64,000 bases of DNA from Methylotenera versatilis 301 (lineage in GTDB: Bacteria; Pseudomonadota; Gammaproteobacteria; Burkholderiales; Methylophilaceae): assembly GCF_000093025.1 (NCBI RefSeq), contig NC_014207.1, positions 558,001 through 622,000 of the forward strand, written 5' to 3'. Positions 45,043 to 61,224 of the stretch are shown here, piece after piece. The stretch's first letter is position 1, and every line of letters starts with the position of its first letter. The notes under the pieces are model-generated. The model was not told the DNA's origin. It ran no database searches and saw only the letters and a program-made list of their open reading frames with translations. Both the position numbers and the translations under genes were made by a program.

Positions 45043-45654
45043 TTACTTAGTATAACTGCTAGGATGCTTGTTTAGCTTTCTTTGCAGGGTGCGTCTATGC
45101 ATATTCAAACTGCGCGCGGTGGCTGAGATGTTTCCATCATGCTCGGCTAAAACGCGATGAATATGCTCCCACTCTAAGCGTTCTATAGGTAATGGATTGG
45201 ACGCTAATTCTACCTCATCATCGCCTGTTTGCTTTTCAAAAGCGGCGACAATTTCATCTGCATCTACTGGTTTAGCCAGATAGTGCGTTGCGCCCAGTTT
45301 GATTGCTTCTACCGCAGTCGTAACGCTAGCAAAGCCTGTGAGCACGACTATGCGTGTGCCAGCATTCAGGCTGGCTAGTTGTCGAACCAGCACTAGGCCT
45401 GAGTTGCCTGACATTTTTAAATCGACTACAGCAAATTCTGGCGGGTCATTTTTAGCCAGCTCAAAAGCGCTTTCTGCGCTATTGGCTAAGCTTACTAAAA
45501 AGCCACGTTTGCGCATGGCAGGTGCCAGTGCGTTTAAAAAATCTTGGTCATCATCCACTAAAAGTAATGTGGCTTTTTCGACCGTGTCATTTTCAGTGCC
45601 ATCATTTTCAACCATATTATTAACAACGTTGTCTTTTGTATCTAGAGGATTCAT
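45043..45654 (-). CDS. regA: RegA/ActR/PrrA-type redox response regulator
   Basis: This two-component response regulator should control respiration and redox genes. The 203 residues have a 28-residue acidic N-terminal extension. A receiver domain (about 28-145) has LLLVDDDQDFL, acceptor Asp D78 in FAVVDLKMSG and YLAKPVDADE. A Fis-type helix-turn-helix (about 160-200) reads GNISATARSLNMHRRTLQRKL, closely like the RegA/PrrA DNA-binding motif. It is followed, reading upstream on the minus strand, by regB only 8 nt away. A 16-nt RegA-box-like sequence lies in the promoter region of regB. Confidence 0.88.
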   Translation of the reverse strand: MNPLDTKDNVVNNMVENDGTENDTVEKATLLLVDDDQDFLNALAPAMRKRGFLVSLANSAESAFELAKNDPPEFAVVDLKMSGNSGLVLVRQLASLNAGTRIVVLTGFASVTTAVEAIKLGATHYLAKPVDADEIVAAFEKQTGDDEVELASNPLPIERLEWEHIHRVLAEHDGNISATARSLNMHRRTLQRKLNKHPSSYTK

Positions 45655-45662
45655 TTAATGAC

Positions 45663-46946
45663 TCACATTTTTTCTAAGAATAATTTTTTAAGTGGTAAGT
45701 TGAGCGTCGCCAATACACCACCTTCTACATGGTTATTCAGGGTCAGTTCACCATCATAGCGCGCGAGAGTGGTTTGCGTGAGATACACGCCCAGCCCCAT
45801 GCCTTGTTCATTTTTAGAGGTGAAAAATGGTGTGCCTAGCTTTTTTTTAGTTTCCGCACTCAAGCCTTTGCCAAAGTCTCTAATTTGAATGCTCAGTATT
45901 TTGTCATTCCATTCGGCATGAAATAGCACGCGTTCAGGGGATTCATCCGCTGCGTTATCCAGCATGTTTTGTATCGCCTGCGTTAAGGTTCGGTCCATCA
46001 CAATCATAGGGTCAATCATATTGCTTGGCGTCGTCACCACAAGTTCTGTGGCAGGGCGGGTATCACGCCAGCGTTGAATGGCATCTTGTAAAAACTCTCG
46101 CAACGGTAAGCCTTGCCCCGCGTCAGCGCGTGATTGCCCTGCATTACGTGTGATGCTTGATAAGATTTCTTTGCAGCGCGACACTTGTTTCTGCAATATG
46201 TTGAGTTGCGTTAGTAGCTCAGGCTGATTAGCATATTCCTGCGTAAGTTCTTTGCTGACTATCGCCATAGTTGCTAGTGGCGTGCCTAGTTCGTGAGCGG
46301 CGCTGGTAGCAAGTGTGCCTAGGGCTAACATGCGTTCGCTTTCCAGTGCTTTTTCGCGGACTTCTGCAATTTTTTTATCATAGTCACGTAAATTTTGCCC
46401 AATACGCGCAATGAATATCGCCACAATCACCGAGCTTACAACAAAGCCTATCCACATGCCGACCAAGTGGATATCTAGTTTTTCATCGCCATGTGTGTGC
46501 ATGTGCAGGTGTGAAAGCGGCACATGGTAAAACATCAGCAGGGTGTAGCAAGTAATGCTCAAACCAGCAATCAGCCACGCGTAGGCTGCCCTTAGTGCAA
46601 CCGCAGCAACAGTTATTGGCAGTAAGTACATCCAAATAAAAGGGTTGCTATAGCCACCACTAAAGTAAAACAGCAGTGATAGTGCGGCAATGTCACCTAG
46701 CAACTGCATGACTAATTCACGTTGTGAGGTTTGCGTGGTTTTTCTTAAGCGCCACCATGCGATTAGGCTAAGCAGCCCCAATGAAGCTATCGCTAACATT
46801 ACTGGCGCGTAAGGCAAGGGGATAGACGCTTGATATAAAGCCAGTAAAACGAAACTTAGGCAAGCCATCACCACGCCGCGCAACATCACTAAACGCTGCA
46901 TGTTGAGGCGTGTTGCGTTGCTGATGGATTGTTGTGCTGGTTGCAT
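45663..46946 (-). CDS. regB: RegB/ActS/PrrB-type redox sensor histidine kinase
   Basis: This membrane kinase of 427 residues has six hydrophobic segments (about 20-190). The quinone-site heptapeptide of RegB is present as GGYSNPF (97-103). The phospho-acceptor His218 lies in TSAAHELGTPLATMAIV. A Cys (C258) in KQVSRCKEIL is placed as the redox-active Cys of RegB. The catalytic domain contains NMLDNAADESPE, IRDFGKGLS and GMGLGVYLTQ. These three features distinguish it from generic kinases. It pairs with regA downstream and is divergent from a TonB-dependent receptor across a putative RegA site. Confidence 0.9.
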   Translation of the reverse strand: MQPAQQSISNATRLNMQRLVMLRGVVMACLSFVLLALYQASIPLPYAPVMLAIASLGLLSLIAWWRLRKTTQTSQRELVMQLLGDIAALSLLFYFSGGYSNPFIWMYLLPITVAAVALRAAYAWLIAGLSITCYTLLMFYHVPLSHLHMHTHGDEKLDIHLVGMWIGFVVSSVIVAIFIARIGQNLRDYDKKIAEVREKALESERMLALGTLATSAAHELGTPLATMAIVSKELTQEYANQPELLTQLNILQKQVSRCKEILSSITRNAGQSRADAGQGLPLREFLQDAIQRWRDTRPATELVVTTPSNMIDPMIVMDRTLTQAIQNMLDNAADESPERVLFHAEWNDKILSIQIRDFGKGLSAETKKKLGTPFFTSKNEQGMGLGVYLTQTTLARYDGELTLNNHVEGGVLATLNLPLKKLFLEKM

Positions 46947-47028: not shown

Positions 47029-47044
47029 TGTGACAAATTGTCGC
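47029..47044. promoter_or_regulatory. Putative RegA/RegR box (copy 1)
   Basis: TGTGACAAATTGTCGC lies in the divergent gap between regB (83 nt to its start) and the TonB-receptor gene (77 nt to its start). It is two near-dyad half sites, GTGAC and GTCGC, five bases apart, resembling the GNG(A/G)C...GNCGC consensus described for RegA/RegR. An identical copy occurs at 56661. Autoregulation of regB is a plausible inference. Confidence 0.6.
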
Positions 47045-47120
47045 GCGGCAATATGCCACATTCCGCTGTAAGAATTTCTCTAATACAATTTGGCGATAAA
47101 AATACTTCAGGGAGAAGGCT

Positions 47121-49493
47121 ATGTTTAAGAAATTAACATTAGCGGTGGTTTTGGCGTGTAACAGCGATTTGTTGATGGCCGAAGAGGCCGCGGTTGAAAG
47201 TAAATCTAAACAAATGCAGGTAGATGCTGAAACTCAAATTGAGCTAGATGCGGTTGTGGTGCGTGCACCGATGATTGATAGTCGTATTCTTAAACATCCA
47301 GCCACGGTTGAAACTTTCGATAAAAAACAAATTGAAGAGAATCTCAATGCGGCAACTTCCTCACAAACCTTGAAATATATGCCTAGTATGCAAGTGCGTG
47401 AGCGTTTTATTGGTGATCGCAACGGCAATATTGCCACTCGTACTGTAGGTTCGCTAGCTAGCGCACAAAACATGTTGTATGCAGATGGCGTGTTGTTGTC
47501 TAATTTTTTGCAGGGCAATTTTGGTTCTCCGCGCTGGGGGATGGTGACGCCAGAAGAAATTGAAAGCATCAGTATGATGTACGGGCCTTTTTCTGCATTG
47601 TATGCGGGTAACTCGTTTGGCGGTGTGATTACCCTAGTGACACGCATGCTAGATAAATTTGAGGCGCATGCTAGTGCGCAGGCTTTTACGCAAAGTTATG
47701 AACATTACGGCACGAACGAAAGCTTTAATGGAAATCATTTAACAGCATCGTTTGGCAATAAAGTGAATGATTTTTCTTTTTGGTTTGGTGTGGATAGGCT
47801 GGATAACCGAAGCCAGCCTATGGGGTTCTCAACCGCCAATCGCTCTACTACGGCTCCCGGAGTAAGCCCAGTCGTGACAGGTGCGTATCAAGACAAAAGT
47901 GAAGTGAACAAAGACCGTGTCATTTTTGGGGCTAACAGCATTGATGACTCTGAGCAAACCAACATTAAATTCAAAGTGGCTTATGACATCACGCCAACCA
48001 TTAAGGCGGCTTATACCTTGGGCGTATGGAATCTGGATAGCAAAACAGAGGTGAAAAGCTATGTTAAAGATGGCGCTGGAAATGCTGTCTATAACGGACA
48101 GGTTAACTTTAATGGTCAACGCTATGATATATCTGGCATGAGTCCGGCAGAGGCCGACTCCCTGCACATCATGCAGGCGCTAGATCTAAAGTCAAACAAT
48201 AAAGATTTTTTTGATTGGCAACTAACTTTATCCGATTATGACTTTCATCAAGATAAAAATAGTTTCTCTAACACGCCAACAAGTGGAACGACTACAGCGG
48301 GTAACCCATATCTCAATCGAATTGGTCGCGTGACAGACCAAGCAGGCACAGGTTGGACAGTATTTGATGCGCGTACCACTTTGCGTCCGCAAAGAAACTA
48401 TTCAGGTCAACACACGATTGATATTGGTTACCATGTTGATCAATACGAATTACGTAGTGAGACAAACGACACTGCGGATTGGTCAACTGGTGCTAAAGGC
48501 GGTTTGTTTTCTGCGGCGCGTGGTGACACTCGTACTCAAGCCCTTTATGCACAAGATAAATGGCAGATTAACCCACAATGGGCGTTGACTTTTGGTGGTC
48601 GCGCCGAGCATTGGGAGGCCAATGATGGACAAAATAAAATTACCATCGGTGGCATATTAAACACTGCTAATTATAAAGATGTGTCAGTGAATAAATTTTC
48701 GCCTAAAGTTTCCCTGAGCTTCGAACCTCAACCAGAGTGGGGGTTTCGTGCTTCATTCGGGCAGGCATTTCGCTTTCCGACTGTTGGTGAGTTATTTCAA
48801 CCTTTGCAAAATGGCGCTGTTCCTTACTTTGTTCAAAGTAATCCAAACTTGAAGCCAGAAGAAGTCATTGCCGGTGAGTTTTCTGCAGAGCGTCGTTTTG
48901 ATAACGGTTTAGTTCGCGCGAGTTTATTTAGCGAGAATAAATTTGATGCGCTCATTACACAATTTCTTGCTGTGGGTAGTGTGATTCCCTACGATACAGG
49001 TACTTGTACTAGAGCAGCAGGGTGTAGTTATACGCAAAACGTGGAGCATATTCGTGCGCGTGGTCTTGAATTAGCAACGCAATGGCAAGATGTGCTGATA
49101 AACGGCCTAGACTTATTGGGTAGCGCAACCTTCACTGATGCAGAGGTGTTACGCAACGATAATGCACCTAGCACGGTGGGTAACAAACCAACTCGCATTC
49201 CAAGAAGTATGTTCAAAGCGGTGGCAACATATCATCAAGGTAGCCATCTAAGCTACAGCTTGGCAGCACGTTACAGTGGCAGGCAATATAATGCTTTAGA
49301 TAATAGTGATAGCAACCCTGACACTTACGGTGCAGCGAGCAAGTTTTTTATTATGGATGTGAAAGCTAATTATAAGTTTGCAGATAAATTAACGGCGAGC
49401 ATTGGCGTAGACAATTTAAATAATTACAAAGCTTATGTGTTTCACCCTTACCCACAGCGTACCGGCTATCTACAACTGAAATATGACTATTAA
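47121..49493 (+). CDS. TonB-dependent outer-membrane receptor
   Basis: This 790-residue outer-membrane receptor has a signal peptide (about 1-20, ending LLMA-EE). A plug domain (about 45-180) contains ATVETFDKKQIEENLNAATSSQTLKYMPSMQVRER and YGPFSALYAGNSFGGVITLVT. A 22-strand barrel has the C-terminal aromatic ending GYLQLKYDY. An early ELDAVVVRAP stretch may serve as the TonB box. The substrate is not evident; sequence alone does not tell siderophore from copper or another complex. It is divergent from regB and preceded by a putative RegA box, so it may be redox-controlled. RBS AGGGAGAAG. Confidence 0.88.
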   Translation: MFKKLTLAVVLACNSDLLMAEEAAVESKSKQMQVDAETQIELDAVVVRAPMIDSRILKHPATVETFDKKQIEENLNAATSSQTLKYMPSMQVRERFIGDRNGNIATRTVGSLASAQNMLYADGVLLSNFLQGNFGSPRWGMVTPEEIESISMMYGPFSALYAGNSFGGVITLVTRMLDKFEAHASAQAFTQSYEHYGTNESFNGNHLTASFGNKVNDFSFWFGVDRLDNRSQPMGFSTANRSTTAPGVSPVVTGAYQDKSEVNKDRVIFGANSIDDSEQTNIKFKVAYDITPTIKAAYTLGVWNLDSKTEVKSYVKDGAGNAVYNGQVNFNGQRYDISGMSPAEADSLHIMQALDLKSNNKDFFDWQLTLSDYDFHQDKNSFSNTPTSGTTTAGNPYLNRIGRVTDQAGTGWTVFDARTTLRPQRNYSGQHTIDIGYHVDQYELRSETNDTADWSTGAKGGLFSAARGDTRTQALYAQDKWQINPQWALTFGGRAEHWEANDGQNKITIGGILNTANYKDVSVNKFSPKVSLSFEPQPEWGFRASFGQAFRFPTVGELFQPLQNGAVPYFVQSNPNLKPEEVIAGEFSAERRFDNGLVRASLFSENKFDALITQFLAVGSVIPYDTGTCTRAAGCSYTQNVEHIRARGLELATQWQDVLINGLDLLGSATFTDAEVLRNDNAPSTVGNKPTRIPRSMFKAVATYHQGSHLSYSLAARYSGRQYNALDNSDSNPDTYGAASKFFIMDVKANYKFADKLTASIGVDNLNNYKAYVFHPYPQRTGYLQLKYDY

Positions 49494-49515
49494 CTGGCTC
49501 ATCAAGCTAATGCTA

Positions 49516-50796
49516 TCAAGTCTGCGAGTCTTCAGCGTTCGATAAGTCCACATCTATAAAATAGCTGACTCGCTTACGTGGGTTCAAGTATTCAAGCACG
49601 TCCGCTGGTAATTGACTTGGGCGTAAGCAGGCGTTGATGCTGATGCTAGGCTCTTCGCGTAAGTCTATTATTTGCGGTTCGTGTCTGGCTGTCAGCGGGT
49701 CATGCACCATCACAAATGGTCTGAGCGGTTTGTTGGGGTTCACAGAAATAACTGTGGCATAGCTACCTGTGGAAAGCTGCACAATACTACCAGGTGGATA
49801 AATGCCCAGCGATTTGATCAAGCGTTTGAGTAGAGATTCATCGTATTTAGCACGCTGGCTGGCGTACATATGCGCGAGTGCTTCATACGGTGTTTTGGCT
49901 AGCGCAATATTGTTTGGGTTACATAAATTGTCATAACCATTCACTATCGCAATTAATCTGGCAAACGGGTCAGTTTGCTCTCCACGCAGATGTTTTGGGT
50001 AACCTGAGCCATCTGCATGCTCATGGTGCTGCATAATGATCTTACCAATACGCACGGGTAAGCCAATCTCTTGTGCCATACGCGAACCTATTTCACTATG
50101 CTGTTCAAAATGTGATTGTTCTGACTTTGTGAGTGGGTCTTTTTTAAGCAAGATTTTATCGGATATTTCTGCCTTGCCAATGTCATGAAACAACGCCGCC
50201 ATCCCTAATAAACGCGCATCTTCTTTTGACATGTTGACAGACTTAGCCATAATCAGCGCAAGTACAGTCACATTGAGCGGATGGATGTAATTGGCATCAC
50301 TGGAGCGGTTGCCATTGAGCGCGTGAACCGCCACATCACCTTCCATTAACGCTGTGTCGACCATATCATTGATAATCACAGCCGCTTGTTCAATTGAGGC
50401 TTTAGAGTCCGATAGAATATTGTGTGTCACTTGTCGGGCAATATTGCTGGTATTGATAAACTTTCTTTCACACACATTAATAGCTTGATGTAGCTCTTTA
50501 AGGCGTTGTTTTGCATTGTCTACGCTGCTTATTGGCGCTGGAATGGGGTGAGTTTCCTTCTCGATTATTTCTACAGATGGCGCCTCTGTTTTGATTGGTA
50601 ATGGCTGACAATCACTACGCTTGGGGTCGTAACGCAATCTGGTAAGCCCCGTTTTTTTAATAATGGAGATTTGCTCTTCATCTTTCACCTTAAAGTTACT
50701 TAGCGTGAATGGGTGATCCATCCATCCTAAATCCAGATGCACATAGATACCCACTTGTAATTGTGAAACGTCCATAAAGTGATGTTCATTATTCAT
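49516..50796 (-). CDS. DUF3391/HD-GYP cyclic-di-GMP phosphodiesterase
   Basis: This 426-residue cytoplasmic protein has the N-terminal DUF3391 domain (about 5-70; MDVSQLQVGIYVHLDLGWMDHPFTLSNFKV). A Pro-rich linker precedes an HD-GYP domain (about 150-340) with LFHDIGKAEISDKILLKKDPLT, IIMQHHEHADGSGYPKHLRGE and the partly diverged IVNGYDNLCNPN. The HD, HH and GYP residues are present, so c-di-GMP hydrolysis to GMP or pGpG is expected. It lies 26 nt downstream of a GGDEF-EAL gene on the same strand, forming a two-gene c-di-GMP operon. Confidence 0.9.
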   Translation of the reverse strand: MNNEHHFMDVSQLQVGIYVHLDLGWMDHPFTLSNFKVKDEEQISIIKKTGLTRLRYDPKRSDCQPLPIKTEAPSVEIIEKETHPIPAPISSVDNAKQRLKELHQAINVCERKFINTSNIARQVTHNILSDSKASIEQAAVIINDMVDTALMEGDVAVHALNGNRSSDANYIHPLNVTVLALIMAKSVNMSKEDARLLGMAALFHDIGKAEISDKILLKKDPLTKSEQSHFEQHSEIGSRMAQEIGLPVRIGKIIMQHHEHADGSGYPKHLRGEQTDPFARLIAIVNGYDNLCNPNNIALAKTPYEALAHMYASQRAKYDESLLKRLIKSLGIYPPGSIVQLSTGSYATVISVNPNKPLRPFVMVHDPLTARHEPQIIDLREEPSISINACLRPSQLPADVLEYLNPRKRVSYFIDVDLSNAEDSQT

Positions 50797-50822
50797 ATGC
50801 TTTACCTCTTTGTTCTTAATTC

Positions 50823-53800
50823 TTATTTTGTTAATAGTTTTGAGAATTCTGTGGCAGTAACAGGTTTACTATAGAGATAGCCTTGTCCTTCTTTGCAGCC
50901 CATGGCGCTTAAGAAATCGGCTTGCGCTTGGGTTTCTACACCTTCGGCAATCACGCTAAAGCCTAAGCTGCCAGCCATCGCATAAATGGCATTGGCAATC
51001 GCGGCATCATCTAAATCATCAGGTAGATCACGTACAAAAGATTGGTCTATTTTTATTTTGTCGAGTGGTAATCGTTTGAGATTAGAGAGCGATGAATATC
51101 CTGTGCCAAAATCATCGATGGCTAATTTCAAGCCAAGTTGCTTGATGCGATTGAACGTATCAATCACATACTCAGTATTTTGCATTACCGTACTTTCGGT
51201 AATTTCAAGTTCCAGCATGTGCGGATTGCAATCCGTTTCCATCAAAATGCCATAAACGGTATCGGCGAAGTTGCTGCGCATAATTTGCACGCCAGAGACG
51301 TTGACTGCAATCCATTGAATAGCATGACCAGCTTTGTGCCAACGTACTATTTGGTGGGCGGCCTCACGCAGTACCCACTCACCGATTTGTACAATTAAGC
51401 CAGTTTCCTCAGCCATCGGAATAAATGTGGCTGGGGACACTAAGCCTAATTTAGGGTGGTTCCATCGTATCAGCGCTTCAGCACCTATAATCTCGCCAGT
51501 TATCAGCGAGACTTGTGGTTGATAGTAAACCTCAAACTGTTTACGCACTAAGGCATGGCGTAGCTGGCCTTCCAAAGTAAAGCGCTCGACCGCGCTTTTA
51601 CTCAAGTCATCAGAGTAGAAGCAGTGGTTGTTTTTGCCTTTATTCTTAACTTGATACATTGCAATATCAGCGGCTTTAATTAAACCTTCTACATCCGCGC
51701 AGTCTTTCGGGAATGTAGAAATGCCGACACTCGCGCTGATGTAAATTTCATGGCCATCAATATTAAATTCAATTTGTAGCGCATGAATAATTTTTTTAGC
51801 TACCAGTGATGCGTCGCTAGGTTTGCTGATCATATCCATCATCACTACAAACTCGTCGCCGCCTAGCCTTGCCACTACGTCGCTATCACGCATGGATAAG
51901 CTAATGCGCCTAGAGGCTTCGAGCAATAGTTTATCGCCTACTTGATGCCCAAGGGTATCGTTAACAGCTTTAAATCGATCTAAGTCAATAAACAATAGAG
52001 CGATTTTATGGTTATCGCGTTCAGCTCGTTTAATGGAATGTTCCAACAGCTCATTTAGTAGGCGGCGGTTAGGCAGACCTGTTAGAGGGTCGTGATTCAC
52101 TAGCTCATGCAACCTGTTTTGTGAGCGCTTAACATCGGTAATGTCAGCAAAAACGCCGACGTAATTAACGACTTGTCCGGCATTATCTTTCACAGCGGTA
52201 ATGGTTAGCCACTCATAATAGTTTTCGCCAGATTTACGTTTATTGAATACCTCACCATGCCAGCGCTCTTCTTTTTTTAAGATGGCCCACATGTCTTTGT
52301 AAAAACGATCATCCTGATTGCCAGATTGAAGTATTTTAGGAGATTTCCCCAGTACCTCTTCTTCGGAATAGCCAGTAATTTCAGTAAAGCCTTTGTTAAT
52401 AGCGACAATGCGTACTTTGTCATCGGTGATCATGATGCCTTCACTGGCGCTATCAAAGGCGATTTTAGCTTGGTGTAATCGCTTGCCTGCATTCTCTCTT
52501 TGTATTGCGACGCCTAAAGATCGACCTATCGCCATTAACGAGCCAAGCTCTTGCGGTGTGGTCTTAATTAAGTCGTGGCAACGCTCGATGATGATATTGC
52601 CCCACCATACCTTGTCTGAGAAAAGCGGGACGATGGCAATAGATTGCGTATCATGTTGCTCAAGTATCTGGCGCTCTGAACTTGGCAGATCACGAATATC
52701 ACCAAAAACAGGGTCACCGAGTTGAAGCGCATCTTTCCAACGATTTAAACGCACATCATTAAAATCAATCGCTTCAAGTGCATTATCAGCATTGCTGAAG
52801 CCTGGCACTGACCATCTGTAAAGTATTTTTGAATGCCCTGATTTGGCTGCATTAGCCACTTCTTTATTACTAGGCTCCACATTTTTAAGTATGGTTGCGC
52901 GAGTAAAGCGTAAAGCAAGGCATAACTGTTGCAACACAGTCACTGCTACTGTTTGCCAAGATTCGGCGGAGTGTAATAACCAGTCGCATGAAATAAGCGC
53001 ATCTAGAATAGCGCTGCGGTCGCGCAGATGGCTTTCAGCCATTTTGCGCTCTGTGATGTCGCGTCCTAGCGTGACTAAGCCATGGCGGCTGCCATCATCG
53101 TTAAACAATGGCACTTTAATGACATCTAGCACTTTTGCGCCACCGTGTGGCAATGAAATGACTTCTTCATTTCTGATTGAGCGACCTAACTTCCAAGCTT
53201 GATCATCAGATACTTTTGAGTGGCGAAAAGCTTCTTTAAACGCAGGGCTAGATAGAGTGGCAAGCTCCATATCAGTTTTGTGTTGATAGTCCAGTTGATC
53301 TAGTTGAAAAAGCTCTATGCTGCTAGCATTCGCTTCTAACCAGCGGTTTTTCTCATCTTTGAAGCAAATCAAATCAGGGCTTGCATCAATCAAATTGCGT
53401 AGTAGTTTTTCGGTATGTCTTAATTGTAATTCTGTGCTGACGCGATCGGTCACGTCATGCATGTGCAGCACATAACCTGAATGCAAGTCTTCAAAATCTT
53501 TGTTGTGTGATGTGAATACCTGCAAGGTGCGTAACTCATCTCCTGCGGCGTACTGCAATACAAAGCTAGTACTGGCTTTTTTTAATTCGGTAACGATGCG
53601 TTTATGTACGGCTTTAGGTAGTTGACCAGTTCTGGCCGCAACATGTTTTACATTCAGGTTGAAAATATCTCTGGCATACGGGTTTGCATAACTGACGTTA
53701 CACTTTTCATCTATAGCAAGAATAGCAACGCCTTGCAATGAGCCTAGTAAATGCCAGGCGAGTGCAAGTTCTTTAGACATGAATCTACTCAGATGGCTTG

Positions 53801-53849
53801 CGCTATCTGGAGCAGATTGCAACTGATCTAATTTATTTAACTTTTTCAA
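50823..53849 (-). CDS. Multi-PAS GGDEF-EAL c-di-GMP protein
   Basis: This 1008-residue cytoplasmic sensor protein has PAS1 (about 30-135), PAS2 (about 145-265, ending ITERKMAES), a GAF-like domain (about 280-455), PAS3 (about 460-575, ending FADITDVKRSQ), GGDEF (about 580-740; RLGGDEFVVMMD with an RDSD inhibitory site before it) and EAL (about 755-1005; EALIRWNHPKLG, EITESTVMQN, DDFGTGYSSLSNLKRLPLDKIKID). No membrane helix is seen, so the signal is intracellular. Both motifs look catalytically complete, and the net activity cannot be told from sequence. The HD-GYP gene follows directly. Confidence 0.9.
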   Translation of the reverse strand: MKKLNKLDQLQSAPDSASHLSRFMSKELALAWHLLGSLQGVAILAIDEKCNVSYANPYARDIFNLNVKHVAARTGQLPKAVHKRIVTELKKASTSFVLQYAAGDELRTLQVFTSHNKDFEDLHSGYVLHMHDVTDRVSTELQLRHTEKLLRNLIDASPDLICFKDEKNRWLEANASSIELFQLDQLDYQHKTDMELATLSSPAFKEAFRHSKVSDDQAWKLGRSIRNEEVISLPHGGAKVLDVIKVPLFNDDGSRHGLVTLGRDITERKMAESHLRDRSAILDALISCDWLLHSAESWQTVAVTVLQQLCLALRFTRATILKNVEPSNKEVANAAKSGHSKILYRWSVPGFSNADNALEAIDFNDVRLNRWKDALQLGDPVFGDIRDLPSSERQILEQHDTQSIAIVPLFSDKVWWGNIIIERCHDLIKTTPQELGSLMAIGRSLGVAIQRENAGKRLHQAKIAFDSASEGIMITDDKVRIVAINKGFTEITGYSEEEVLGKSPKILQSGNQDDRFYKDMWAILKKEERWHGEVFNKRKSGENYYEWLTITAVKDNAGQVVNYVGVFADITDVKRSQNRLHELVNHDPLTGLPNRRLLNELLEHSIKRAERDNHKIALLFIDLDRFKAVNDTLGHQVGDKLLLEASRRISLSMRDSDVVARLGGDEFVVMMDMISKPSDASLVAKKIIHALQIEFNIDGHEIYISASVGISTFPKDCADVEGLIKAADIAMYQVKNKGKNNHCFYSDDLSKSAVERFTLEGQLRHALVRKQFEVYYQPQVSLITGEIIGAEALIRWNHPKLGLVSPATFIPMAEETGLIVQIGEWVLREAAHQIVRWHKAGHAIQWIAVNVSGVQIMRSNFADTVYGILMETDCNPHMLELEITESTVMQNTEYVIDTFNRIKQLGLKLAIDDFGTGYSSLSNLKRLPLDKIKIDQSFVRDLPDDLDDAAIANAIYAMAGSLGFSVIAEGVETQAQADFLSAMGCKEGQGYLYSKPVTATEFSKLLTK

Positions 53850-54145
53850 TTACTTTTACATTCTAAAAAAGGCCTATTAATATTTACCTAAAACATACCA
53901 ACTAGCAAATTTATTCAACATTAAGTGCAAATATGCTGAATATGAGCGATATGTTTTTATCGACCATAATGACTAAAGCTTGAATGTAAATATACGCTTT
54001 GGCTTGTAAAACCATCTTTGAATTAAAAGTACTTAGTGGTGCTAATTTATAAGTTAGCGACTAGGTGCTATAAGCGATTGAGACTTTTAGAGGTCCTTGG
54101 CTAAGGCAATATTGAAATATGCTAGTATTTGTTAACAATATTTAG
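53850..54145. other. Intergenic region before the TlpA-like gene
   Basis: This A/T-rich 296-nt gap separates the minus-strand PAS-GGDEF-EAL gene and the plus-strand thioredoxin gene. It holds no supportable ORF or RNA. A 10-bp palindrome TTGTTAACAA (54129-54138) lies just upstream of the thioredoxin start and could be an operator. Confidence 0.4.
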
Positions 54146-54658
54146 ATGATGTGTAATATGGCTTCAATGATCAGATTATTACTTTTAGTATTTTTGGCGG
54201 GTATACACACTTCTGCCTATGCGGTTGAAGAGGGGAAGCTTGCGCCACTGCTTACCGCCAAGCTGCTGGATGGTAAATCATTTTCAACTGAATCGGTAAA
54301 AGGTGAGGTGGTGATTGTGAACTTCTGGGCAACTTGGTGCCCACCATGCAGACAAGAAATGCCCGCGTTCGAAAGTTATTATCAAAAGCATAAGAACCAA
54401 GGTTTAAGGATAATTGCCGTGAGCTTAGATGAGCCTGCGGATTTGGCTAAAGTGCGCGAAGTCATGCGTGACTATACTTTTGACGCGGCGTTAGAAAGTG
54501 AAAGTCAGCACAAAGGTTATGGTCGAATCTGGCGTTTACCATTAACCTTTGTGATTGATCGCAAAGGCGTCTTACGTAAAGACGGCTGGTACGGTGCAGC
54601 AGGCATAGATTTACCATTACTAGATAAAATCGTCACGCCACTGCTTGAAGAAAAGTAG
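54146..54658 (+). CDS. TlpA/ResA-like thioredoxin-fold lipoprotein or secreted reductase
   Basis: This exported thiol-disulfide protein of about 170 residues has a hydrophobic N-terminal signal (IRLLLLVFLAGIHTSAYA-V). The thioredoxin fold contains VIVNFWATWCPPCRQEMPAFESYY with the WCPPC redox motif, a cis-Pro region LPLTFVIDRKGVL and RIIAVSLDE. It resembles TlpA/ResA reductases used in cytochrome c or oxidase maturation. Several in-frame ATGs near the start (54146, 54149, 54158, 54167) lack a clear ribosome site. The oxidase-assembly cluster lies about 4 kb downstream, beyond a foreign-looking patch. Confidence 0.85.
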   Translation: MMCNMASMIRLLLLVFLAGIHTSAYAVEEGKLAPLLTAKLLDGKSFSTESVKGEVVIVNFWATWCPPCRQEMPAFESYYQKHKNQGLRIIAVSLDEPADLAKVREVMRDYTFDAALESESQHKGYGRIWRLPLTFVIDRKGVLRKDGWYGAAGIDLPLLDKIVTPLLEEK

Positions 54659-54819
54659 CGGTTTATTTTGGGTATTGGGTTTCTGTGATGGATTTAGCCA
54701 AAAATTGGCTGAATTAAAATCGACTCAGGTTCCTTGATTCTGTTATTTTCTGCACTAGACTCAGCAATTTGCAGCATATTTACATCAGGCGCAGTATAAT
54801 CACGCAAATATTTAATTGA

Positions 54820-54896
54820 TTGCCGTACTAGTCGTGCGGTGAGGAACACGACCGTTAATGAGCAGGTCGTAGATTCGAAGCCTACTCGGCAAGCCA
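54820..54896 (+). tRNA. Degenerate tRNA-Asn(GUU)-like sequence
   Basis: This 77-nt segment has tRNA outlines. The acceptor halves TTGCCG (54820-54825) and CGGCAA (54887-54892) pair fully. A discriminator G and encoded CCA close the 3' end (54893-54896). The T arm reads GTAGA-TTCGAAG-CCTAC with the canonical TTCGAA loop and one mismatch. The central CCGTTAA resembles the anticodon loop of tRNA-Asn (GTT). The D and anticodon stems do not form normally; CGACC/GGTCG pairs instead. A TATAAT lies at 54795 and a terminator just downstream, so it may still be transcribed. It may be a pseudo-tRNA, an attachment-site relic or a divergent mobile-element tRNA. Confidence 0.4.
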
Positions 54897-54913
54897 GGCA
54901 TAGCAAGCAATCA

Positions 54914-54941
54914 GGCCATCCTTTGAGGTGGTCTTTTTTTT
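54914..54941 (+). terminator. Rho-independent terminator after the tRNA-like sequence
   Basis: GGCCATCC (54914-54921), a TTTGA loop and GGTGGTC (54927-54933) form a stem with one bulged base and a G-T pair, followed by eight T residues. It closes a possible transcript beginning near the TATAAT at 54795. Confidence 0.7.
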
Positions 54942-55048
54942 GAGCGGATAAACCCCTGACTGCCAGCTATGACGCGCTCACACAAGACATGATCCCTTCA
55001 GCGAGTGCTGATCTCTGTGGGTTTCAACTAATTTAAGGAGCAATACCC

Positions 55049-55585
55049 GTGACAAACGCACAACGCAGAGCACTTAGCCGCATGGCTGAAATGAATTCAT
55101 CAAATATCGATAGCAAGCCTGAGCCGACGCACAGTAGCGGGTTCTGCCCGCATGAAGCAGGCGCGTATTATCTGGTAACGGTGGAGATTGTCGGCAAGGT
55201 TATCAATCTACTCGCTATGGAAATCGAACCGCCTGTTCATACCTACACCATCAACACCATTAATTTTGAACAAGATCCCGATTCTGGCAAATGGATCTGG
55301 TTTGATGGTAAAGAGAAATTATCTCCACGCAAAAACCAAGATAGTTGGCGTCTTGGCAGCAAGAAGTTATATGACACACGCGAAGTGGCTGAGGCGGAGC
55401 TTCAGCGCGTGATGGTCAAAAACGGTGATCGAGTGACCAAGGTACATGACCTGCCAGACGATGTGACTGCGTTGAAAAAGATCCGCAGTGCCCATCACCC
55501 AGACCGCAATAACCCAGATTCTGACCATGATCTCTATCAGGCAGTTATCGAGAAAATGGACAGGATGCGTGCAGTGAGTGCGTAA
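55049..55585 (+). CDS. Orphan protein with J-domain-like C-terminus, probably mobile-element derived
   Basis: This 178-residue soluble protein starts with GTG behind a strong AAGGAG. No known family is recognised for the first 140 residues, which contain FCPHEAGAYYLVTVEIVGKVINLL and GKWIWFDGKEKLSPRKNQ. The C-terminal 35 residues, LKKIRSAHHPDRNNPDSDHDLYQAV, look like helix II-HPD-helix III of a J domain, but helix I is missing. The position just after a tRNA-like sequence and terminator, with no related neighbours, suggests acquisition from an integrative element or plasmid. Function is unknown. Confidence 0.6.
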   Translation: MTNAQRRALSRMAEMNSSNIDSKPEPTHSSGFCPHEAGAYYLVTVEIVGKVINLLAMEIEPPVHTYTINTINFEQDPDSGKWIWFDGKEKLSPRKNQDSWRLGSKKLYDTREVAEAELQRVMVKNGDRVTKVHDLPDDVTALKKIRSAHHPDRNNPDSDHDLYQAVIEKMDRMRAVSA

Positions 55586-55632
55586 GTCACACCTTAGCCT
55601 GACCGCGTAACAACTCGATTTATTACCTCAGC

Positions 55633-56598
55633 TTAGAAACTAAAGCGTAAGCCTGTAGAAAGCAATACATTTGGCTCAATTTGGTAGCCGTTCACATGCT
55701 GATAAATAGGCACTTGTATAAAACCAAATGCTTGTACTGTTTTGTTGATTGGCACGGTAACGCCAGGGCTAATGTAAATCAGCGTCGCGCCACTATTATC
55801 TACATCGGCTTCAGCGCCTGACTCACGTTTTTCGATACGAGTATTGAATTGCAGTTGTGGAATAAATGATTCAAATCCCATGTAACGCACGCCAGCTGTC
55901 GCATTTAAACCGTTCCCAGGGCGAAAGTCATTATGCTTGTTAAGGGCTATTTGAACCGTGGCTTGTGCAAAATAATCCCAGTCGCGGTTGATGCTGCCAA
56001 AGTAATAGCCGCCTAGTAATAAGTCTGTAGTGCCAGTACCTAGTTGCAAGCCTCTATCAAGTGGTGAACCGTCATTAAAAGTATCGTTGGTTTCACCTGT
56101 GGGTAACTTTAAGCCAAATGTGATACCGCTACTGCGGTCTGCGCTTAAACCTTGATAACGGCCCGTCACGCGTAAATCACCTAACCCTTTAGATGACGAC
56201 GTGATAAGTGCAGCAGGGTCTGGATAGTCGCCATCTTCGCCGTAAGTACCGTGAGAGCGGTTAAATATAGGCAGTAGTAGGTTAATCGCCCAGTCTTGGT
56301 TAAAGCTATGATCCAGCCCCAAAGTCAGGTTGCGGTTGATGGTGGTATCTTGTACTTCTGTGCCCACAGGAATGTTGCTGCGGCTTACTGAACTAGTGCC
56401 ATTTCGGTAATCACTCTGTTTGAAATAGTCGAAACGAACGTCAAATCGCGTACCTTCGCCAGATGAAATCCCTTGTGATGACCAATCTGAATTGAGCGTA
56501 CAGCCGCAACTTGAGCATGCAAATGCATCGGTTGATGAGGCGAAAGCCAATGTCGCAAATGATGCTACGAGCAGGTGATTTTTGGTAAGCAAAGACAT
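55633..56598 (-). CDS. Secreted beta-barrel protein with N-terminal CxxCxC motif
   Basis: This predicted outer-membrane beta-barrel of 321 residues has a signal peptide (about 1-26). A Cys motif at the mature N-terminus (C28-S-S-C31-G-C33) is followed by alternating hydrophobic strands typical of transporter-type barrels, including GLGDLRVTGRYQGL, ITFGLKLPTGET, LLLGGYYFGS and a C-terminal LLSTGLRFSF with a terminal Phe. The Cys cluster suggests metal (perhaps copper) binding at the periplasmic end; this is inference. It is divergent from a BNR-repeat protein across a putative RegA box. No precise family name can be given. Confidence 0.72.
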   Translation of the reverse strand: MSLLTKNHLLVASFATLAFASSTDAFACSSCGCTLNSDWSSQGISSGEGTRFDVRFDYFKQSDYRNGTSSVSRSNIPVGTEVQDTTINRNLTLGLDHSFNQDWAINLLLPIFNRSHGTYGEDGDYPDPAALITSSSKGLGDLRVTGRYQGLSADRSSGITFGLKLPTGETNDTFNDGSPLDRGLQLGTGTTDLLLGGYYFGSINRDWDYFAQATVQIALNKHNDFRPGNGLNATAGVRYMGFESFIPQLQFNTRIEKRESGAEADVDNSGATLIYISPGVTVPINKTVQAFGFIQVPIYQHVNGYQIEPNVLLSTGLRFSF

Positions 56599-56660
56599 GA
56601 TTTACTTTCAACACATAAAACTATACTTTAGATTATGAACTAGCATGGGTATAGAGTAAA

Positions 56661-56676
56661 TGTGACAAATTGTCGC
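56661..56676. promoter_or_regulatory. Putative RegA/RegR box (copy 2)
   Basis: This site is identical over all 16 nt (TGTGACAAATTGTCGC) to the one at 47029. It is centred in the divergent gap between the Cys-motif barrel gene (63 nt to its start) and the BNR-repeat gene (107 nt to its start). The shared sequence and shared divergent-promoter context suggest that both regions answer to RegA. Confidence 0.55.
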
Positions 56677-56782
56677 AGGGGCAGCGGAAAACCAGGGTTC
56701 TATCTTCATAGGTTAAAATTATTCGATAAATAGATGTTGGGTAAATATTCGTTTTAAATACTCAATGGCGTAAACTTCCAGC

Positions 56783-57991
56783 ATGAAAATATTATTAGCA
56801 CTTTGTTTGTTTTGCTCGTCATTAGTCGCAAGTGCGCACGACGATCACACTAAATCTCAAGACAACTCTCTGGCTATTAGCGTGGCGTTTGATGCGCAAG
56901 GCAGTTTATGGAGAGTGCTTGAAAAAAATGGATTGATACTTGTAAGCTCAAGCCGTGATTTAGGCAAAACTTTTTCTAGCCCCGTGCAAGTCACACCCAA
57001 TGCACAAAAAATAGGCGCAGATGGTGAGGCGCGACCTAAAATCGCGATTGGCCCAGAAGGCAATATTTACCTCACTTGGACAGAGGCTTTAAAGAAGCCG
57101 TTTACAGGGTATATTTGGTTTTCACGTTCAATCAATGGTGGTAAAAGTTTTGAAAAGCCGATCATTGTACATACAGACCGTGCTGAGATTACACATCGAT
57201 TTGATGAGCTCAACGTTGCGAAAACTGGTGATGCTAAAGGAAAAGTCACTGTTACTTGGATTGATAAGCGCGATTTAATTGCAGCTAAATCTGCAGGTAA
57301 ACCTTACGAAGGTGCAGCGATCTATTACGCGACTTCCAGTAATCAAGGGGCAAGTTTCGCACCTGAGCAAAAACTGGCTGATAGTAGTTGTGAGTGCTGC
57401 CGTATTGCTTTAACCAATAAGCCAGATGGTACGGTGGCGGCAATGTGGCGCCATGTGTTTGAAGGCAGTGAGCGCGATCACATGATGGCTGAAATTCCTG
57501 TACAAGTAAATCAAGTGCCCGTCACGAAGCGCGCGACTTTTGGTCGCTGGAAAATTGATGGCTGCCCGCATCACGGCGCGGCGCTTGCTACTGGTGGCGA
57601 AGGGAAAGATTGGTGGGGCTATCATATGGCATGGTTTGACGGCGGTAATGACGATTCAGGTAAAGATGCCAGCTTGTTTTATGCCCGTATGGATGGCGAA
57701 GCTTGGGTTTCTTCGCCACCGAAAAAGTTTGGTAAGCACAATAATCAGGCGGGTCATCCAGCTTTATTGAGCATGGGCGAGAATGTTTGGCTGGTTTGGC
57801 GCGAGATTGAAAGTAAAAATAATAAAATACTGGGTATGTTTTCTGACGATGGAGGCAGAAGCTGGGGCGCACCAAAAGAGCTTGCAACTAGTGCAGGTAA
57901 ATCGGACTATCCGATTTTACTGACTAAAGACAATCGAGCTTACTTGGCTTGGAATACTGATAAAGACGGTTTGATTTTGCTTGGTTTGTAG
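56783..57991 (+). CDS. Secreted BNR/Asp-box repeat protein (sialidase-like fold)
   Basis: This exported 402-residue protein has a signal peptide (about 1-18, ending SA-H), followed by a HDDH segment that could bind metal. At least four Asp-box-type repeats mark a beta-propeller: SSSRDLGKTFSSP, SRSINGGKSFEKP, SSNQGASFAPE and FSDDGGRSWGAPK. A Cys cluster, C203-E-C205-C206, lies at the end of one blade. Sialidase catalytic residues are not convincingly recognised, so a non-enzymatic or metal-related role is more likely. It is divergent from the Cys-motif barrel and upstream of oxidase-assembly genes. Confidence 0.78.
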   Translation: MKILLALCLFCSSLVASAHDDHTKSQDNSLAISVAFDAQGSLWRVLEKNGLILVSSSRDLGKTFSSPVQVTPNAQKIGADGEARPKIAIGPEGNIYLTWTEALKKPFTGYIWFSRSINGGKSFEKPIIVHTDRAEITHRFDELNVAKTGDAKGKVTVTWIDKRDLIAAKSAGKPYEGAAIYYATSSNQGASFAPEQKLADSSCECCRIALTNKPDGTVAAMWRHVFEGSERDHMMAEIPVQVNQVPVTKRATFGRWKIDGCPHHGAALATGGEGKDWWGYHMAWFDGGNDDSGKDASLFYARMDGEAWVSSPPKKFGKHNNQAGHPALLSMGENVWLVWREIESKNNKILGMFSDDGGRSWGAPKELATSAGKSDYPILLTKDNRAYLAWNTDKDGLILLGL

Positions 57992-58009: not shown

Positions 58010-58669
58010 CTACATGCACCATACTTTTGCATCATGCGTCAGTGACATCCAAATAGCCCAAGCACTGGCGCTACTGAGCAATAAGCCTGCAAGGCGCATG
58101 CCATACGGCTCTACCATCGTTGTTTTGAGTTTAAGCCATAACCATGGCGCGAAAAATAATGAGATTGCAGAGCCTACAGCAAATGCCGCCATACTGAGTG
58201 CGCCGCCTAGCGGGTTGCCATTGAATGAGGCAATGATGAGTGCGGAATAAAGTAAGCCGCAAGGCATTAATGCCCAAAGCATGCCGATATAAAAATAGCC
58301 GCCGTTTATTTTGCTGAGTTTTTTAACATGCTGCCAAATACGCCGTCCAGCTTGATCTATCCATATCGGCTGGCGTGCATAAATGACTAGTATCAAACCC
58401 CAGAAAAAAACCAGCACATGAAAGAACGTCCATAGCGGGTGCAAAATGGCGCTATAGCTAGAAAGCCAAGCAATGCTTTGAATGGCAAACGTGGCGATTG
58501 CGCCTAATAGCGCATAGCCACACACCCGTCCTAAGTGATAAAAGTAAATCGCATAGGGTTTATCTGGCGATTGTGTGAATGAGGTGCAAGCCGCGCCGCA
58601 CATGGCTACACAATGTGGGCCACCAGCCAAGCCCATGATGAGCGCGCTATAGATAAGTGCTGTTTGCAT
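58010..58669 (-). CDS. TauE/SafE (UreH-like) family membrane protein
   Basis: This 219-residue inner-membrane protein has about six helices. The N-terminus ALIYSALIMGLAGGPHCVAMCGAACTSF, with its His and Cys residues, is typical of the UreH/SafE-like proteins found beside cytochrome oxidase assembly genes. YHLGRVCGYALLGAIA and GMLWALMPCGLLYSALIIA follow. It lies 90 nt downstream of ccoS on the same strand, so a role in copper supply or maturation of cbb3 oxidase is likely but inferred. It is convergent with the BNR-protein gene. Confidence 0.8.
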   Translation of the reverse strand: MQTALIYSALIMGLAGGPHCVAMCGAACTSFTQSPDKPYAIYFYHLGRVCGYALLGAIATFAIQSIAWLSSYSAILHPLWTFFHVLVFFWGLILVIYARQPIWIDQAGRRIWQHVKKLSKINGGYFYIGMLWALMPCGLLYSALIIASFNGNPLGGALSMAAFAVGSAISLFFAPWLWLKLKTTMVEPYGMRLAGLLLSSASAWAIWMSLTHDAKVWCM

Positions 58670-58759
58670 GATTGATTGAGAGTGTTTTTTGAAGTGAGGT
58701 TTATTGCGTAACCGAACGGATTTTAATTAAGGTATCTCAATTGAAGTTTATTGGTCTGA

Positions 58760-58903
58760 CTATTCTTTATCTTCTTCAAAAATACGTCTGCCTTCTTCTT
58801 CAATGTCTTCAAATTGGCCGCGATAAACTGCCCACCAAAGGCCGCCAAGTACCACTAACCCCATCACAACTGAAAGCGGTACGAGTATAAACAGGATATC
58901 CAT
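58760..58903 (-). CDS. ccoS: Cytochrome cbb3 oxidase maturation protein CcoS
   Basis: This 47-residue single-pass membrane protein is needed for cofactor insertion into cbb3 oxidase. The sequence MDILFILVPLSVVMGLVVLG, then GLWWAVYRGQFEDIEEEGRR, then IFEEDKE has the family layout: one N-terminal helix, the W-A-V-x-x-GQF-D/E-D motif and an acidic tail. Its ATG overlaps the ccoI stop by one base (TAATG), so the two are translationally coupled. Its short length makes it easy to overlook. Confidence 0.93.
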   Translation of the reverse strand: MDILFILVPLSVVMGLVVLGGLWWAVYRGQFEDIEEEGRRIFEEDKE

Positions 58904-61224
58904 TATTTAGCCTTAGTTTCCGAAAAGGTAGTTAATCGCAGCGCGTTTAGAACAACGATGATAGAACTCACAGCCATGCCCAAACCCGCTAACCAAGCGG
59001 ATAATACGCCAAAAAATGCGAGTGGAATACACACTACATTGTAAACAATAGCCCAGGCAATATTTTGTTTGATAATGGTCATGGTTTTTCGTGCATGACG
59101 AATCAGTTGTGGAATTTGACTAATGTCACCGTTTAGCAAAACGTAGTCCGCATGGGCAAGCGTCAGCGGTACGCCTTTGCCCATGGCAATAGACACATGG
59201 GCGCTGGCTAAAATTGGACCATCATTTAAGCCGTCACCTACCATGAGTATATTTTTGCCTTGCTGTTTTAGAGCGTGCAGTCGAGATAGTTTGTCTTGCG
59301 GACTACATGCCGCTTGAAATTGCGTAATCCCAATTTCCTTAGCGGTATTCACTACAGTATGCGCTTGGTCACCAGATAAAAGCTCTACGCTTAAATTAGC
59401 ATCCTTTAATTGCTGAATGGCTAGTGCTGCATTGTGTTTAACCGCTTCATGTAAACTAAATGTTGCTAGCCAGCCATTTGCATCAGTAAGAAATACTTGT
59501 TGAGAGCGTTCGCTTGGCTCCACTACTCCGCAAAACTTGGCAGAGCCTAACTTTAAGTGCGAATTGATTAAATCTGCATGAGCCGTATTAGCTTGTAAGG
59601 TGGCGCTAATGCCTGCACCAACTACTTCTTGAATATTAGTGAGCGTTATCGATGATTGATCAGAGTTTTGCTGATTTGCACTGACTAAAGCACGTGAAAC
59701 AGGGTGCATAGAGTGTTGCGCCACTGCTGCGGCCAAAGCTAGAGCGTCGTTTTCGGTCAGCCCTTGTTTATAAGTGATTGATTGCACCTCGATGTGATCT
59801 TCAGTCAGCGTGCCAGTTTTATCAAAAATAACCGTATCGATATTCGCAATACTTTCTATCGCTTGCAGACGCCTAATAAGAATGCCGCGTTTAACAAATG
59901 CACTGGCGCTGGCTAACATAGCGGCAGGTGTGGCTAATGACAATGCGCAAGGGCAGGTGACAATTAATACCGCCGCGGCAGTCATTAATGCACGGGCTGG
60001 ATCTGTATGCCATAACAAAGCGGCCGCAACTGCTGCGCTTAGAATAACAAAAAACAAAAATGGTCTTGCAACACGATCCGCTAATTGAGATAACCTTGGT
60101 TTTTCAATCGCCGCTTGATTGATTAAGTTAACAATCTGCCCGTATTGTGTGGATTCGCCTATAGCTTCCAGCACGATATTCACGGTTTGACCTAAGTTGT
60201 AACTACCCGCTACAACCTTATCATGCAGATTCTTTTGTATAGGCGTTGACTCTCCTGTGAGTAGCGACTCATCTACGCGGGTGTCACCTAATACGAGTTT
60301 GCCATCGGCAGGAAATGCTTCGCCTATATGCACGCGCGCAATATCGCCGACTTTAAGTTGGCTGTTTAACACGCGAGTATATGAGCCATCTAGGTTTTGG
60401 CGCTCGATGTTTTCTGGAATGCGGCTGACTAAAGCTTCCATTGAACCTAATGTTTTGCTGTGTAGTTTCACTTCTATGAGTCTGGCCGAAAGCAAAAAGA
60501 ACACAAACATAGTCAGTGAGTCGAAATAGATTTTGTCTCCCCACCAGCCATGAGGCGCGAAAGTTGCTGCAGAGCTTACTATAAAGGTGATGGCTATACC
60601 CAATGCTACAGGTAAATCCATGCTGATTTGTCTGTGTTTTAAATCGCGGAATGCATTAGCAAAAAATGTACTGCTGGAGAATAATAATACTGGCAGGCTC
60701 AATATCCATGATGCCCAATTAAGTAAGATGGCAATGTCAGGTGTGATGTCACCAGGTTTGGTAAAGTAGCTTGGGCTGGCATACATCATCACTTGCATCA
60801 TGCAAAAGCCTGCGACTAACCAACGCCAAAATGCAGCACGACTTTTTTTAGTGGTATTTAGCTGGTTTTCATTATGTGAAGCAGGGTTCGCGCTATAACC
60901 CATGGCTTGAATGGCGCCGAGTATAGTTGAAGGCTTGGTTAATGCGGGTGACCAAATCACAGAAGCACGTTTTTTTGACATACTCACTCGCGCGCTGACA
61001 ATCCCTGGCAATGTGCTCAAACCACGTTCTATAGTGCCAGAACAAGCCGCGCAGCGTAAGCCATCTAGCAGTAAGCTAGACTCTACAAGTGAATGAGTAG
61101 GGTCGTTCCCCGCAGGCTGGCTAAAAGCTTGCCATTGATCTTGAGTATCTAAAATCACCCAAGATGGATTGGGTGAGTTTGGCTCGGTGGCAAAAATCTC
61201 AGTGGTAGAAGTGCTAGTTAGCAA
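58903..61224 (-). CDS. ccoI: Copper-transporting P-type ATPase CcoI
   Basis: This heavy-metal P1B ATPase supplies copper for cbb3 oxidase assembly. It has about 773 residues. A heavy-metal-associated domain (about 40-105) contains LRCAACSGTIERGL. Eight membrane helices follow, with the TGESTPIQ actuator region, the CPC motif in TCPCALSLATPAAM, the phosphorylated Asp in FDKTGTLTEDH and the hinge MVGDGLNDGP. The usual N-terminal Cys-rich extension of CcoI is short here. The start TTG 61224 is preceded by GGAG at 5 nt; TTG 61239 is the alternative. It is coupled to ccoS, and the structural genes ccoNOP are absent here. Confidence 0.9.
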   Translation of the reverse strand: MLTSTSTTEIFATEPNSPNPSWVILDTQDQWQAFSQPAGNDPTHSLVESSLLLDGLRCAACSGTIERGLSTLPGIVSARVSMSKKRASVIWSPALTKPSTILGAIQAMGYSANPASHNENQLNTTKKSRAAFWRWLVAGFCMMQVMMYASPSYFTKPGDITPDIAILLNWASWILSLPVLLFSSSTFFANAFRDLKHRQISMDLPVALGIAITFIVSSAATFAPHGWWGDKIYFDSLTMFVFFLLSARLIEVKLHSKTLGSMEALVSRIPENIERQNLDGSYTRVLNSQLKVGDIARVHIGEAFPADGKLVLGDTRVDESLLTGESTPIQKNLHDKVVAGSYNLGQTVNIVLEAIGESTQYGQIVNLINQAAIEKPRLSQLADRVARPFLFFVILSAAVAAALLWHTDPARALMTAAAVLIVTCPCALSLATPAAMLASASAFVKRGILIRRLQAIESIANIDTVIFDKTGTLTEDHIEVQSITYKQGLTENDALALAAAVAQHSMHPVSRALVSANQQNSDQSSITLTNIQEVVGAGISATLQANTAHADLINSHLKLGSAKFCGVVEPSERSQQVFLTDANGWLATFSLHEAVKHNAALAIQQLKDANLSVELLSGDQAHTVVNTAKEIGITQFQAACSPQDKLSRLHALKQQGKNILMVGDGLNDGPILASAHVSIAMGKGVPLTLAHADYVLLNGDISQIPQLIRHARKTMTIIKQNIAWAIVYNVVCIPLAFFGVLSAWLAGLGMAVSSIIVVLNALRLTTFSETKAK

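Follow-up and report, generated by a model that had tools for sequence, protein, structure and literature searches.

Promoters of Methylotenera versatilis 301 carry a 17-bp palindrome that is very probably the operator of an autoregulated RegA regulon, in which copper-dependent terminal reductases are joined to outer-membrane uptake, plausibly of copper. We describe it in a 64,000-nucleotide stretch of the chromosome (NC_014207.1, positions 558,001 to 622,000, forward strand; the window, in which position 1 is the first letter) that encodes the sensor kinase RegB and the response regulator RegA. As the initial annotation of this DNA had recognized, the 16-mer TGTGACAAATTGTCGC stands at 47029-47044 and 56661-56676, its sole two exact matches in the window, and both copies lie between divergent genes. 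The first adjoins regB, in a 174-bp gap shared with the gene for a TonB-dependent receptor; the second lies in a 184-bp gap between genes for an outer-membrane barrel and a BNR-repeat protein. The 16-mer is the core of a larger unit, the 17-bp palindrome TGYGACA-N3-TGTCRCA, whose 14 specified positions are all matched by copy 2, and 13 of them by copy 1. A second palindrome, absent from that annotation, abuts copy 1, and the pair forms a 32-bp composite at 47029-47060. The predicted boxes are as follows.

47029..47045, plus strand: predicted RegA box 1a, TGTGACAAATTGTCGCG; 82 bp to the regB start and 75 bp to the TonB-receptor start
47044..47060, plus strand: predicted RegA box 1b, CGCGGCAATATGCCACA; abuts box 1a; 60 bp to the TonB-receptor start
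56661..56677, plus strand: predicted RegA box 2, TGTGACAAATTGTCGCA; 62 bp to the barrel start and 105 bp to the BNR start

The recurrence of the 16-mer would by itself be weak evidence, because arithmetic predicts about one repeated 16-mer pair per 64 kb when both strands are counted, and with self-complementary words excluded the window has no other repeated pair separated by more than 100 bp. The repeat is lifted above chance by being palindromic, by where it stands and by the comparative tests below. A duplicated segment is unlikely, since outside the 16-mer there is little similarity between the two gaps, whose best local match spans 23 columns. Box 2 abuts a weak -35-like hexamer facing the barrel gene (promoter match 9/12), and a sigma-70 scan of site 2 gave two weak matches of that strength where shuffles yield 1.3; the same scan gave no promoter match at site 1. 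The hexamer next to box 2 is only a hint of activation at the barrel.

The palindrome keeps company with RegBA across the family. We assembled 150 genomes, 53 of which encode RegB and 53 RegA; G028 has RegA without RegB, and G073 has RegB without RegA. The strict palindrome has 60 sites in 39 of these genomes, against five sites in five genomes for a reversed control. It is present in 38 of the 53 RegB-positive genomes and in one of the 97 RegB-negative ones (Fisher p 4e-22), and outside the genus of M. versatilis the counts are 23/29 and 1/97. The sole RegB-negative carrier, G023, is an assembly 75% complete, and its site lies 243 bp from a coxB relative. Conversely, G056 and G068, the sole RegB-positive genomes in their sampled genera, are also the sole strict-site carriers there.

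Boxes are concentrated upstream of regB itself. Within 300 bp upstream, taken from the first aligned RegB residue (at a few loci 30-65 residues inside the protein), the best box scores at least 12/14 in 48 of the 53 family genomes. The same threshold is reached in 0/53 reversed controls, in 0/53 when the first 300 bp of the gene are scanned, and in 0.3% of 1060 shuffles. The half-site arrangement GYGRC-N5-GYCRC occurs at least once within 300 bp of regB in 49/53 and two or more boxes occur in 32/53, the commonest box-to-box distance being 15 bp, the same as between boxes 1a and 1b. The initial annotation held that half-sites five bases apart fit RegA or RegR, and this spacing proves dominant: 83 instances at 5 bp over the 53 regions, and no more than three at each of the other spacings tried, which ran from 0 to 12. 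Elsewhere in the order the pattern holds in part. An order-wide sample of 200 genomes included 87 with RegB, 82 of them from outside the family; in the best 25 of these 82, a spacing of 5 gives 19 matches and every other at most two, and the score reaches at least 12 in 11/25 regions versus 0/25 for reversed ones. At one regB locus (G134), two cytochrome c-domain proteins (L289:4491-7228) stand divergent from regB behind the box; one of them has weak, sub-threshold similarity to a bd-type oxidase, and similar open reading frames (ORFs) occupy that place in G127 and G036.

Searches of the M. versatilis genome (3.06 Mb, one contig) lead from the window to both terminal oxidases. When the 17-mer was sought with up to three mismatches, matches with at most one mismatch lay at three places, namely the two window sites and position 2527431, which is 57 bp upstream of a DUF2244 gene that precedes coxB and the rest of an operon that we read from sequence as that of an aa3-type oxidase. 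A symmetric relaxed pattern found five sites, versus none for its reversal: boxes 1a, 1b and 2, one box 46 bp upstream of ccoN of the cbb3 oxidase, and one inside a gene. The CcoN concerned is 93% identical to the L149 CcoN, which passes TIGR00780. A looser pattern gave 19 sites versus six reversed, with 13 of the 19 in ORFs and six intergenic; the six comprise two in the regB/receptor gap, one each at barrel/BNR, ccoN and cox, and a weaker 11/14 site whose nearest downstream start is 367 bp away. Among the 17-mer matches with assigned loci, 11/26 are intergenic; of these 11, four reach 13-14 and keep both core bases, and the others have scores of 11-12. In the pattern searches, the intergenic boxes with a full core that lie outside the window number two, upstream of ccoN and of DUF2244-coxB. 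On the concern, raised in advance, that the sequence might be equally common in coding regions, good matches are no commoner inside genes. Two weak intergenic near matches (11/14; G000 C1:478338 and 478372) also lie 34 bp apart in this genome.

At orthologous promoters the box tracks RegBA. For each gene we compared the best 30 loci (ccoN was matched in 104/150 genomes, DUF2244 in 89 and the OprC-like receptor in 67), counting a box when it scored at least 12/14 and kept the G and C of the half-site cores, with G028 and G073 scored as RegBA-positive on a single protein. The core rule was set after the data were seen, because a plain 12/14 cut accepted sites resembling TGTAACA-N3-TGTAACA at cox in 7/14 RegB-negative genomes. 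With this rule, boxes precede ccoN at 23/23 RegBA-positive versus 2/7 RegBA-negative loci, DUF2244-cox at 15/16 versus 0/14, and an OprC-like receptor gene at 22/23 versus 0/7, while the reversed pattern appears at 1/90 of the same promoters. Conservation at orthologous promoters, which the annotation had named as a check, thus holds for these three genes. The window receptor behaves similarly in 12 loci from named records of Methylotenera and other Methylophilaceae, which are partly the same genomes as the family set and not independent of it: a box is present in 7/7 with regBA adjacent and in 0/5 without, Methylophilus methylotrophus being among the five. Boxes at BNR promoters are found in only 2/19 RegB-positive and 0/11 RegB-negative genomes. 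A direct repeat resembling TGTAACA-N3-TGTAACA, about 65-80 bp upstream of DUF2244-cox, was also seen in several RegBA-negative genomes (L175-L187), at the place that the palindrome occupies in RegBA-positive ones; it probably serves another regulator.

We next consider the proteins predicted to act on these sites. The two genes are:

45043..45654, minus strand: regA, response regulator of 203 aa with a Fis-type helix-turn-helix (HTH); NF033791 at 189.8 bits (curated cut-off 250); residues 151-197 match 1umq (E 1e-10)
45663..46946, minus strand: regB, sensor kinase of 427 aa; NF033792 at 264 bits (cut-off 350); GGYSNPF, HELGTP and a cysteine in RCKEI

RegA consists of a receiver (PF00072) and a Fis-type HTH (PF02954), the receiver-plus-HTH arrangement sought, and the solved domain 1umq is presumably PrrA of R. 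sphaeroides. In RegB, GGYSNPF stands at 97, HELGTP at 218 and RCKEI at 257, and the cysteine of RCKEI is one that we take to be the redox-box cysteine. The protein thereby shows the GGXXNPF quinone-site heptapeptide, H-box and redox-box cysteine that are features of RegB (PMC8191878). The single cysteine conserved in RegA was described for alpha-proteobacteria (PMC9147068), to which that claim is confined; the window RegA has no cysteine. Compared with published RegA, PrrA and RegR strings, five boxes of the M. versatilis genome have 0-2 mismatches in 11-12 specified positions, and they fit the 15-bp R. capsulatus RegA consensus, as quoted in PMC5506826, with 0-1 mismatch. Assignment of the boxes to RegA, although predicted from sequence, is well supported by comparative genomics. 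In one genome, G149, three RegA-like genes of similar strength are present (C1:465981, C2:537680 and C5:150654); the other RegA-positive genomes listed have one.

What the 60 strict sites flank gives the regulon its character. All were placed, with flanking genes named by BLASTP to reference proteins, and with the proviso that one site may count twice the neighbours are TonB receptors (28), regB (9), nosZ (9), barrel (3), BNR (2, one a short weak match), cox (2), and TlpA, ccoN and katG (1 each), with none recognised at 10 and an ORF only at 2. Fifty-six of the 60 are not deep inside an ORF; of the other four, two have nosZ or a receptor gene as neighbour, and the remaining two, which are the ORF-only sites of the list, stand at 62 and 120 bp before DUF2244, so the overlapping ORFs are probably spurious. 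Half of the receptors beside strict sites (14/28) have CxxxM, the half of the OprC motif that was scored, in the plug. Three CxxxM receptors were scanned with the TIGR01778 copper-receptor model, one scoring above its cut-off and two below, and for the one that was searched the best solved relative is OprC (E 1e-20). Of the 36 genomes that have both regB and an OprC-like receptor gene, 13 have the two within 10 kb of each other; in the other 23 they are mostly on different contigs. At E 1e-70 the OprC-like query finds nothing in the M. versatilis genome, and the OprC arm is therefore seen in relatives only.

Taken as a RegA regulon, these observations suggest the following model. RegB would sense redox through the quinone pool and a redox cysteine, as in other RegB proteins (PMC8191878, PMC9147068), and would phosphorylate RegA, whose phosphorylated dimer we infer to bind GYGRCA-N3-TGYCRC and so to activate or repress the adjoining genes. 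The two abutting boxes between regB and the TonB receptor could then exert control in both directions, making regBA autoregulated, and the boxes at ccoN and DUF2244-coxBA would place both terminal oxidases under RegA. In relatives, nosZ and the OprC-like copper receptors may also be under its control. Metal supply would thus track the respiratory demand sensed by RegB. The initial annotation had proposed a redox regulon beside the ccoI-ccoS genes: the regulon is supported by boxes at regB, ccoN, cox, nosZ and TonB-receptor promoters, but no box was seen at the window ccoI-ccoS genes, and in this genome the oxidase boxes at ccoN and cox lie outside the window. A wider formulation seems to us as easily right as wrong: that RegBA of the Methylophilaceae is a redox-copper regulator coupling cbb3, aa3 and NosZ, through one rigid 17-bp operator, to outer-membrane copper importers (OprC-like, and perhaps CrtA-like with BNR-propeller and Cys-motif barrel partners), and that it may be the missing regulator of OprC-type receptors here.

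Several observations weigh against the RegA-copper model. RegB and RegA have the NCBIfam equivalogs NF033792 and NF033791 as their best matches, by a wide margin in the case of RegA, yet both score under the cut-offs. The strict site is missing from 15 of the 53 RegB-positive genomes, although almost all of these carry near matches at regB, and upstream of regB the best score is 9 or less in four of 53. The co-occurrence counts ignore phylogeny, and the reversed pattern also favours RegB-positive genomes (4/5 of its genomes, p 0.05), a hint of shared composition or relatedness. The promoter comparison rests on the best 30 loci per gene, and in it two RegBA-negative genomes, G111 and G050, retain a box-like site at ccoN; both belong to genus g22, as does the RegB-positive G068. 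Half of the flanking receptors lack CxxxM, the window receptor among them, and in Methylomonas a RegA-dependent TonB receptor is not bound directly by RegA (PMC13274454).

The receptors bear on an alternative that we regard as possible though doubtful, in which RegA does bind the boxes but governs redox or respiration in general, with the copper-receptor sites as incidental members; the window receptor, barrel and BNR protein would then take up other cargo, such as heme or an iron chelate. Consistent with this, 14/28 flanking receptors are without CxxxM and the window receptor is nearest to the heme receptor PhuR among solved structures. Copper is nevertheless needed by NosZ, cbb3 and aa3 alike. 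The OprC plug motif is present in the other 14 flanking receptors, and OprC-like receptors stand within 10 kb of regB in the 13/36 genomes noted above. Iron is favoured by published links of RegA to iron transport genes of Rhodobacter (PMC5359404) and to the uptake of iron by Methylomonas (PMC13274454). Copper is favoured by gene order in G090, where a PepSY_TM gene comes directly after a relative of the window receptor, as has been described for CrtA copper importers (PMC12914433).

It is improbable that the palindrome instead serves a different regulator inherited together with regBA, such as one of the CRP/FNR type. TGTGA...TCRCA does resemble a CRP-type half-site, and a regulator that always accompanied RegA would give the same pattern of presence and absence. 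In the palindrome, however, TGTGA and TCRCA are 7 bp apart, while CRP sites have a 6-bp gap, and the strict site follows RegB over 150 genomes, including G056 and G068; the gap and the co-occurrence disfavour a CRP-type site. In addition, GYGRC-N5-GYCRC stands near regB in 49/53 genomes, and the boxes fit the published RegA, PrrA and RegR strings. Chance coincidence of a 16-mer, or a remnant of a duplicated segment, we reject as having next to no likelihood: one repeated pair was found where about one is expected, but both copies are near-perfect palindromes in divergent promoters with little homology past the 16-mer, and further boxes at regB, ccoN and cox promoters are strongly conserved at orthologues.

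The RegA regulon can be set beside known systems. That RegA regulons include cbb3 and nos genes is already known: R. capsulatus RegBA affects cbb3-accessory and nos genes by chromatin immunoprecipitation sequencing (ChIP-seq; PMC5359404), and Bradyrhizobium RegSR controls nos, nor and the copper-homeostasis genes copCAB (PMC4064962). The R. capsulatus study also named photosynthesis, motility and iron transport, and the term TonB is absent from its main text (PMC5359404), whereas TonB receptors are the largest class beside strict sites here. The Bradyrhizobium RegR string quoted in PMC5506826 has its half-sites 5 bp apart, as do the boxes described here, but here the copper link would be outer-membrane import. 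In Methylomonas sp. DH-1, RegA likewise belongs to a methylotroph and affects TonB-receptor and other metal-uptake genes, but the metal is iron and the direct target is feo (PMC13274454). The CxxxM motif in 14/28 receptors is the plug motif of OprC/NosA (PMC8610252), and while that source reports nothing known of the mechanism of oprC down-regulation in copper stress, here a predicted RegA box precedes the OprC-like gene in 22/23 RegBA-positive loci. Rhodobacter RegA is itself reported to bind copper (PMC9147068).

RegA motifs have so far been uneven between studies. ChIP-seq in R. sphaeroides gave no strong consensus (PMC4263372) and a study of Acidithiobacillus could predict no motif (PMC5506826), whereas ChIP-seq in R. 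capsulatus found a well-conserved sequence (PMC5359404). Comparative genomics here yields a sharp operator of fixed spacing, with which the sequence of a genome reveals its RegA regulon throughout one family and, in part, in the wider order. A further prediction is that outer-membrane copper receptors, about whose regulation little is known, are controlled by a respiratory redox sensor, and defined promoters in methylotrophs become available as test cases. In the open-access literature searched, no earlier description of RegA boxes turned up for OprC-like receptors or for Methylophilaceae.

The other window genes around the boxes are:

47121..49493, plus strand: TonB-dependent receptor, divergent from regB; PF00593, PF07715
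54146..54658, plus strand: TlpA/ResA-like thioredoxin; PF00578; NF002854 below cut-off
55633..56598, minus strand: outer-membrane barrel, 321 aa, N-terminal CSSCGC; no Pfam match; low-confidence model (predicted local distance difference test, pLDDT, 62), nearest FapF and COG4313 channels
56783..57991, plus strand: BNR beta-propeller with SxCECCR and CPHHG motifs; PF13088; model pLDDT 82
58010..61239, minus strand: DsbD_2 protein (58010-58669), ccoS-like 47-aa ORF (58760-58903) and ccoI-type copper P-type ATPase (58903-61239); both cco names are assumed, as in the initial annotation

The window receptor, the barrel and the BNR protein may handle a metal, perhaps copper. The best solved relative of the receptor is PhuR; it has no CxxxM within its first 260 residues, where the OprC/NosA plug motif was sought, and no QxH with the spacing of CrtA Q356/H358. 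CrtA importers, in which a TonB receptor is followed by PepSY_TM, have been linked to heme-copper oxidases (PMC12914433). The G090 relative resembles their described layout, and the window has no PepSY_TM gene at this place. Cysteines of the BNR protein are conserved among 14 relatives, which keep SxCECCR and CPHHG; C203, C206 and C261 are invariant and, together with CPHHG, could form a metal site.

Gene order suggests how copy 2 came to its place. In several Methylotenera relatives BNR lies downstream of the receptor, and regBA is divergent from this receptor-BNR pair with the box region between; in the lineage of M. versatilis, receptor and BNR are apart. G090 and G096 have no barrel, no TlpA gene and no box at BNR, G027 has the barrel, TlpA and the box, and barrel relatives in two other genera (G001 and G026) also have a strict box. 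From this distribution, copy 2 most likely arrived with the barrel gene, and it looks recent in this lineage. Between barrel and TlpA, G027 also has three ORFs (L162:5489-6828), ArsR-, glyoxalase- and ArsC-like by eye, which the window is without. Finally, the regBA cluster of the window has HD-GYP, GGDEF-EAL, hybrid-kinase and receiver genes beside it (49516-53849 and 36948-42471), and HD-GYP and GGDEF-EAL genes remain with the cluster in several relatives.

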